64,000 nt of DNA, taken from positions 62,001 to 126,000 of the forward strand of contig NZ_JAHDIG010000001.1 in assembly GCF_020630935.1 (NCBI RefSeq), in the 5' to 3' direction. The stretch is from Bernardetia sp. GTDB lineage: Bacteria; Bacteroidota; Bacteroidia; Cytophagales; Bernardetiaceae. The stretch's first letter is position 1. Every line of letters starts with the position of its first letter. Made by a program: the position numbers and the translations under genes. Shown here one piece after another: positions 1-894 of this stretch. The notes under the pieces were generated by a model. It did no database searches, was not told the origin of the DNA, and saw only the letters and a program-made list of their open reading frames with translations.

Positions 1-26
1 TTATTCAACCTAAAATTTATTTGAAA

Positions 27-761
27 ATGGAACTACAGCTAGAAAAATCATTAGAGTTTAAAGGTTACCTCAAAAGTACTCCTATTTTAGACTTCGGTAA
101 TACGAGTATTCAGTTACTCATAAAAAATAGAGGATGGAACAAAATGGCAGACTCTGATAAAATAGAAAAAATATACAATTATGTTAGAGATGAAATTAAA
201 TTTGGCTACAATACTGACGATAACATACCAGCATCTCAAGTTATTAGTGATGGTTACGGACAATGCAACACAAAAGCAAATCTTTTTATGGCTCTGTTAA
301 GGGCAGTAAATATTCCTAACCGAATGCACGGTTTTACTATTTATAAAGCATTGCAAAAAGGAGCAGTAACAGGAGTTTGGTACAAACTTGCTCCGAAAAA
401 CATTTTACACAGTTGGGTGGAAGTTTTTTTTGACGGAAAGTGGTATAATTTAGAAGGACTAATTCTTGACAAACCCTATTTGGAAGCATTACAAAATAAA
501 TTTTCTGATTGCAAAACTACCTTTTGTGGATATGGAGCTTACACAGATAATTTTGCACAGCCACAAATAGAATGGAAAAAAAACCATACTTACATCCAAG
601 AAAAGGGAATCAATCAAGATTTTGGCTTATTTGACACACCAGACGAGTTTTATAGCAAACATCAACAGAAATTAAGTCTTCTTAAAAAGTTTGTTTACCA
701 AAACTACGTGCGACACTTGATGAATAAAAATGTAGAAAAAATAAGAATGGGTAAAGGATAA
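27..761 (+). CDS. transglutaminase-like domain protein
   Basis: 244-residue soluble protein with a transglutaminase/protease-like core. The nucleophile region reads GYGQCNTKANLFMALLRA (Cys near residue 80), followed by HSWVEVFFDGKW (His) and NLEGLILD (acid), which is the Cys-His-Asp order of the family. No signal peptide or membrane segment is seen, so it is probably cytoplasmic. Members of the fold can be peptidases, amidases or inactive binders, so the substrate is unknown. The frame is open to the left window edge with a TTG at 21, but ATG at 27 is the first good start. It is convergent with the asparagine-synthase-like gene, with a structured repeat between the two stops. Confidence 0.75.
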   Translation: MELQLEKSLEFKGYLKSTPILDFGNTSIQLLIKNRGWNKMADSDKIEKIYNYVRDEIKFGYNTDDNIPASQVISDGYGQCNTKANLFMALLRAVNIPNRMHGFTIYKALQKGAVTGVWYKLAPKNILHSWVEVFFDGKWYNLEGLILDKPYLEALQNKFSDCKTTFCGYGAYTDNFAQPQIEWKKNHTYIQEKGINQDFGLFDTPDEFYSKHQQKLSLLKKFVYQNYVRHLMNKNVEKIRMGKG

Positions 762-763
762 AA

Positions 764-894
764 TATTAGAGTACTAGACATGAAATAAAAAGTTGTTGGC
801 GTCGCTACACTAAAAACACCAACGAACAGCACTTTTTTCACTGTTCTGTGGCTCACAGAATAGCAAATATCTATGGATGTCCAGTACTCTAATA
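764..894. repeat. multi-stem inverted-repeat element, MITE-like or structured RNA
   Basis: The ends form an 18-bp inverted repeat with one mismatch (764-781 against 877-894, core AGAGTACT). Inside are a stem with one bulge (792-799 against 819-827) and a 10-bp hairpin (841-850 against 854-863, loop GCT). The whole folds as an outer stem closing two inner hairpins. It fills the gap between two convergent genes. No protein is supported here. It could be a non-autonomous mobile repeat, a folded RNA or a bidirectional 3'-end processing site. Confidence 0.6.

Follow-up and report, generated by a model that had tools for sequence, protein, structure and literature searches.

The 125 bp inverted-repeat element that lies between two convergent genes of Bernardetia sp. 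(RefSeq assembly GCF_020630935.1) is a MITE, a non-autonomous DNA transposon, and represents a new family of a known kind (family A). It is very probably an IS4-type-mobilized MITE that carries two captured REP-like palindromes of two RAYTs of its own genome. REPs and MITEs are usually classed apart and are moved by unrelated enzymes (HUH tyrosine versus DDE). As a MITE the element is ordinary; as a MITE–REP chimera with the apparent enzymes of both palindromes resident in the same genome it is unusual. The window referred to below is the whole stretch of 64 000 nucleotides that was analyzed (positions 62 001 to 126 000 of contig NZ_JAHDIG010000001.1, forward strand), and positions given without a contig are positions in this window. 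No report on these repeats in Bernardetia was found in the open-access literature (PMC).

The original prediction placed a terminal inverted repeat of 18 bp with one mismatch at 764–894, enclosing a bulged stem and a 10 bp hairpin between convergent genes, with no room for a gene. This architecture was confirmed. Comparison of 764–781 with the reverse complement of 877–894 gave 17 pairing bases out of 18 and a single mismatch; the bulged stem (hairpin 1) has its core at 795–823 and occupies 792–831 (+) together with a 3′ tag, and the 10 bp hairpin (hairpin 2), in which one pair is G–U in this copy, is located at 841–863 (+). The RNA fold of 750–910 reached −41.8 kcal/mol compared with −23.7 ± 3.7 kcal/mol for 200 shuffles (z −4.8), none of which was as low. 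Only the limits required correction: the three outermost bases at either end (764–766 and 892–894) are target-duplication bases outside the element proper, which spans 767–891 on the + strand in the orientation of the family consensus. Its 15 bp ends are TAGAGTACTAGACAT at 767–781 (+) and, read on the − strand, TAGAGTACTGGACAT at 877–891, and it is bordered by an identical direct duplication of the 9-mer ATAAAATAT at 758–766 and 892–900. The convergent ORFs occupy 3–761 (+) and 907–1917 (−), and of these two neighbours one encodes a transglutaminase-like protein (PF01841) and the other a protein whose match to asparagine synthase is sub-threshold. The element itself has no coding capacity; a 68-amino-acid frame at 704–910 (−) crosses it into both flanks and was read as non-coding. 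An empty site for this copy was sought in six relatives and none could be demonstrated. An orthologue of the right-hand neighbour is present in one of the six (G003), where homology begins only at window position 909, so that the empty target of the window copy is not comparable.

A search of the host genome (G000; 4.75 Mb in 153 contigs) for a second copy, which had been proposed as a check, found many. In a BLAST search, 40 of 133 first-look candidates were scored, and all 40, the window copy included, matched with 83–100% identity. With a covariance model derived from 36 copies, 112 rows were obtained at E ≤ 0.01, corresponding to 104 distinct places after opposite-strand duplicates had been merged. 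Full copies were taken from 78 stretches fetched by place, together with the window, and were chosen for 15 bp ends with no more than four mismatches; 19 BLAST rows in which two ends could not be recognized were dropped, these being copies that had decayed or been truncated, or hits of the palindrome to its own opposite strand. The resulting 69 full copies are on average 91% identical to the family consensus (range 75–98%), and 54 of them are bordered by a 9 bp target duplication with at most two mismatches (exact in 36, one mismatch in 13, two in five, three or more in the other 15). The length of the duplication is well defined, as the per-base match in the first 39 copies was 0.85 at length 9 and 0.35–0.46 at lengths 6–8 and 10–12. 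The duplicated 9-mers are AT-rich, mostly with A at the first position and T at the last. Copies, ends and duplications were thus all observed directly, and terminal inverted repeats, a duplication of fixed length (9 bp) and dispersed copies together characterize a MITE; the dispersed mobile element that was one of the two original suggestions was therefore borne out by the many copies and their target duplications. In one family A copy (L104, G000:C17:1209–1519), which is 311 bp long, approximately 190 bp of other sequence is located within hairpin 1. The ends of this insert, AACGTAAACTTGG and CCGAGTTCACGTT, resemble imperfect inverted repeats by eye, and it may be another small element.

According to a crude ORF caller, none of the 69 copies lies inside an ORF; 32 are found between tandem genes, 23 between divergent genes and 13 between convergent genes, and one is at an edge. 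This distribution bears on the idea that the element is a bidirectional terminator common to convergent genes and spread by duplication. At the window copy and several others, two convergent ORFs do end only a few bases away, and in the window sequence a run of T is found approximately eight bases beyond the stem of hairpin 1. However, convergent placement accounts for only 13 of the 69 copies and the 9 bp duplications are a mark of insertion, not of local duplication, and a terminator of this kind is hardly credible as the explanation.

The other original suggestion, a folded RNA, was not supported. A repeated structured regulatory or small RNA, with the closing stem and the two arms under selection, would agree with the strong fold (z −4.8) and with a first alignment of 36 copies, which was drawn chiefly from the best 40 BLAST matches and is a biased subset. 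In this alignment RNAalifold predicted 29 pairs, with covariation contributing −0.26 kcal/mol, and seven of 500 shuffles reached the covariation score; double changes were present in three of the 29 pairs, and a hand count hinted at an excess of pair-keeping over pair-breaking changes (approximately 34 versus 10). However, selection on RNA structure was rejected, because this excess disappeared with 69 copies: among rare transitions (those in five copies or fewer) 51 were pair-keeping and 49 pair-breaking, and among all transitions the numbers were 152 and 189. The stems thus decay without compensation between copies. Furthermore, copies among tandem genes have no preferred orientation (16 in the direction of the genes, 16 opposed), and the copies are not tied to one gene arrangement. 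No Rfam family scored above its gathering score; the sole match up to an E of 1 was SNORD26 at 916–991, outside the element, with 22.6 bits versus a required 44. Family A thus appears to fold without a selected RNA function, and a structured RNA is very improbable.

The covariance model matched seven of 39 genomes, all of the same genus and including its own, with 50 matches of the MITE in G004. Ten weak model matches that were read from G001–G003, G005 and G006 (L078–L087) contain hairpin 1 with other ends, not those of family A. Searches of phage and plasmid collections for family A gave no match. A 74 bp element in G004 (L095, G004:C75:24848–24921) has similar ends, an exact 9 bp duplication and a single hairpin, and is possibly a minimal form.

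A candidate source of the transposition activity was found in the same genus. Paired ends TACAGTACTGGACAT that are 1208 bp apart occur in G001, in G002 and on a 35 kb contig of G003, thus in three of the six genomes of the same genus, and enclose a DDE transposase of 373 amino acids. The ends of this IS are identical to those of the MITE at 14 of 15 bases, and an exact 9 bp duplication borders four of the six IS copies read. The transposase matches PF01609 with 61.6 bits (cut-off 23), and YYLRWKIECLFRHLK in the ORF of L088 fits Y-(2)-R-(3)-E-(6)-K, which we take to be the DDE signature of the IS4 family. The best NCBIfam IS4 model gave 127.1 bits, below its cut-off of 152, and the IS is therefore labelled IS4-type and not filed as a member of the family. 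Because its ends and its duplication length agree with those of the MITE, this IS is likely to be the mobilizer of family A. Past the 15 bp ends, the two have little in common. A protein search with the transposase gave no match in the host genome, whose assembly of 153 contigs may lack repeats, or in G004–G006; in GTDB contigs, a collection that may omit near relatives, 42 stretches fitted a pattern and none was confirmed. At one locus (L393, G001:C1:84000–98700) two inverted copies of the 1208 bp IS surround approximately 11 kb, in which several ORFs resemble RHS-type repeat proteins by reading. Neither copy has a 9 bp duplication of its own, and both outer flanks carry ATTCCCAAA, an arrangement that either a composite transposon or an inversion between the copies would produce.

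The interior of the MITE probably has a different origin. Hairpin 1 of the family A consensus is, by direct comparison over 31 nt, identical to a palindrome that also occurs alone, here termed M1. The 22-base core of M1 (up to three mismatches) occurs 28–156 times per genome in the seven genomes of the genus and not at all in four genomes from three other genera of the family; its backward control was absent from the genus and occurred once in one of the four. In GTDB genomes an exact 28-base pattern with one free position had 117 matching stretches. Some of these come from Bacteroidota under labels other than Bernardetia, among them MAGs with the label Chitinophaga pinensis and several with the label Bacteroidetes. 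The loci collected contain 217 distinct M1 instances, of which 78 are in family A, 44 are in a second MITE-like family (family B) with ends GAAGTTGTTTAAGAAT, unrelated to those of family A, and the same hairpin 1, and 95 are stand-alone, that is, without detected MITE ends. Family B occurs in the genus (L078–L087, L123, L137 and L262), and many of its copies have a long palindrome, TTTTTCCTTAGAACTGGGTTTGCAAACCCAGTTCTAAGGAAAAA, besides hairpin 1. In the stand-alone copies a foot pair just outside the search pattern covaries: 67 of 87 copies have a Watson–Crick pair compared with a mean of 36 and a maximum of 53 in shuffles (none of 10 000 reached the observed value), in a test that counts sequences, not events, and omits eight of the 95, which lack the TT/AA context. 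A tag of GGCA, GGTA, GGCG or GGCT is present on the 3′ side of 83 of the 95 stand-alone copies. The palindromes lack the GTAG tag that marks canonical REPs and are therefore termed 'REP-like'.

In the host genome 65 of 72 matches of hairpin 1 fall in MITE places, and M1 has therefore spread there mainly by hitch-hiking as a passenger of the MITE. The other seven comprise three at contig starts, one in the insertion-bearing copy on C17 (L104) and approximately three that are free. Free M1 copies have feet of the forms GTT/AAC, TTT/AAA and others. Family B fits the free TTT/AAA form directly, whereas family A needs one extra G (GTT/GAAC), and this difference in fit suggests that families A and B may have captured M1 separately.

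The likeness to REP elements raised in the original prediction proved apt, as both inner hairpins match palindromes that adjoin RAYT genes. In L296 (G004) repeats of hairpin 2 surround an ORF of 184 amino acids, which scores 66.7 bits (E 2e-18) with NCBIfam REP_Tyr_transpos, below the cut-off of 80, and is also below the cut-off of Pfam Y1_Tnp; all seven RAYTs scored gave 65–76 bits, below the same curated cut-off of 80. Relatives of the L296 ORF were found in 12 of 15 genomes. When 30 loci fetched with this ORF as the query were searched for the palindromes, with reversed patterns as a control, hairpin 1 (up to six mismatches) was found near the gene in nine loci (reversed pattern, 0/30), leaving out a tenth (L394) in which it was matched within a MITE copy, and hairpin 2 in two (L394 and L395; reversed pattern, 0/30). 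The 17 RAYT loci within the genus hold 14 copies of hairpin 1 versus 0.9 expected from genome density; the corresponding Poisson value, 1e-12, assumes independent copies, an assumption violated by their clustering, as M1 (up to three mismatches) is present in only four of the 17 loci and all 14 copies are there. An earlier scan with PF01797 had found no M1 at 60 Y1-transposase loci (a row with eight mismatches at L158 was dismissed, and the reversed control gave one row, L328). For the RAYT group of the L296 ORF this was largely a false negative, because the scan brought mostly other Y1 groups and its substitution-only pattern missed a loop that is one base longer at L176 (= L408).

Both kinds of RAYT were observed directly beside their palindromes in the host genome. 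The RAYT at G000:C28:204 has an upstream copy of hairpin 1 with a loop one base longer, and groups with the hairpin 1 RAYTs of G001 and G006 (support 1.0); the RAYT at G000:C34:42314 has hairpin 2 directly upstream. The stem of family hairpin 2 is identical over 9 bp to the palindromes, here termed H2, that flank this second RAYT in G004 and in the host genome, and the loop differs. Judged by this 9 bp stem, on which the link rests, hairpin 2 is a putative REP-like palindrome of the second RAYT. There are 31 instances of H2 without MITE ends, a count that takes in both-strand repeats and degraded MITE copies. In PMC6006769, TnpA-REP subclass 2.6 is described as having the motifs NH[LIV]H, WQ and YIH[QN]NP and as occurring mostly in Bacteroidetes, with atypical secondary structures on its flanks that also have copies at other places in the genome. 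In L394 and L395 the H2-linked RAYTs have the complete set (PNHLH, WQ and YIHNNP). All eight M1-linked RAYTs examined have PNHIH and WQ; YIHNNP is present in L407 and L416, five others have YIHANP, YIHHNP, YIHYNP or YVHHNP, and the motif is absent from the broken frame of L402.

Several other repeats were noted. In L403 (G042, a MAG labelled Chitinophaga pinensis) a RAYT gene is accompanied by closely arrayed palindromes that vary in the loop, CTTGTTGGTG-TTCTT-CACCAACAAG, with GGC/GCC tags on both sides. The Y1 transposase genes of L325 and L327 (G043 and G039) are flanked by a different repeat type, TTAGAATGGGTT-AACCCATTCTAA palindromes, which resemble the long hairpin of family B. Three elements of G001 (L097, L098 and L106) have ends TATAGTACTGGACAT or TAAAGTACTGGACAT and 9 bp duplications, and their interior of two inverted GTYGGTG...CACCRAC hairpins with GGC tags is like a REPIN within MITE ends.

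The association with RAYT genes also bears on the alternatives that hairpins 1 and 2 are ordinary MITE components and only look like REPs, or that the stand-alone copies are remains of MITEs. The 65 of 72 host-genome matches of M1 in MITE places are what such an origin would give. However, stand-alone M1 is found in Bacteroidota genomes without adjoining MITE ends, M1 clusters at RAYT genes and it also occurs within family B, with its unrelated ends; an origin of the hairpins within the MITE is accordingly quite unlikely. On the preferred reading of captured palindromes, the MITE would have inserted with a 9 bp duplication into the gap between the two convergent genes, and its 15 bp ends were most likely cut and joined by the IS4-type DDE transposase of the full-length IS, to judge from the ends and the duplication length. 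Its interior would have taken in two REP-like palindromes, each of a different RAYT, and these palindromes, hairpin 1 at least, would now be multiplied chiefly by being carried in the MITE. We consider it possible, although rather doubtful, that mobility has two layers, in which the unit as a whole is spread through its DDE-type ends and the resident RAYTs still accept the inner palindromes as substrates. If this were true, MITEs would be vehicles by which REP-like palindromes reach new sites and genomes, and REP-like hairpins would have been recruited repeatedly as MITE interiors, because the same hairpin 1 is found in two MITE-like families whose ends are unrelated.

The finding suggests that one parasitic DNA spreads by riding within another. 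A single genome offers a MITE with two REP-like palindromes inside it and a RAYT beside each kind, and two questions become testable: how MITEs gain interiors that are unrelated to their parent IS, and whether the copy number of a REP can rise without RAYT activity. Counts of such palindromes can reflect MITE activity instead of RAYT activity.

Among known systems, family A resembles the bacterial MITEs NEMIS, RUP, ERIC and Nezha, as described in PMC3733652, in being short and non-coding, with inverted ends, a target duplication and many intergenic copies; it differs from them in the two REP-like palindromes of two different RAYTs that it contains and in having no phage or plasmid match. The IS4-type insertion sequences are represented by the candidate mobilizer, which has a DDE_Tnp_1 domain and ends and a duplication length that match those of the MITE; unlike a simple internal deletion derivative, however, the MITE is not so derived from the 1208 bp IS. 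Hairpins 1 and 2 are, like REPs and REPINs with TnpA-REP (RAYT) of subclass 2.6 in PMC6006769 and PMC3116915, short RAYT-adjacent palindromes. In those accounts canonical REPs have a GTAG tag on the 5′ side, whereas M1 has GGC or GGT on the 3′ side, the M1-linked RAYTs vary at one motif position of the subclass and, unlike REPs and REPINs, the MITE-borne copies move within an element that has DDE-type ends. A partial precedent is found in Anabaena variabilis, in which, according to PMC3733652, dimers of the GTAG-15 REP are regularly placed in longer repeated palindromes, so that REPs lie inside a longer repeated palindrome as in family A. There the dimers are of one REP family, whereas family A combines two different palindromes, a defined 9 bp duplication and a candidate mobilizer.
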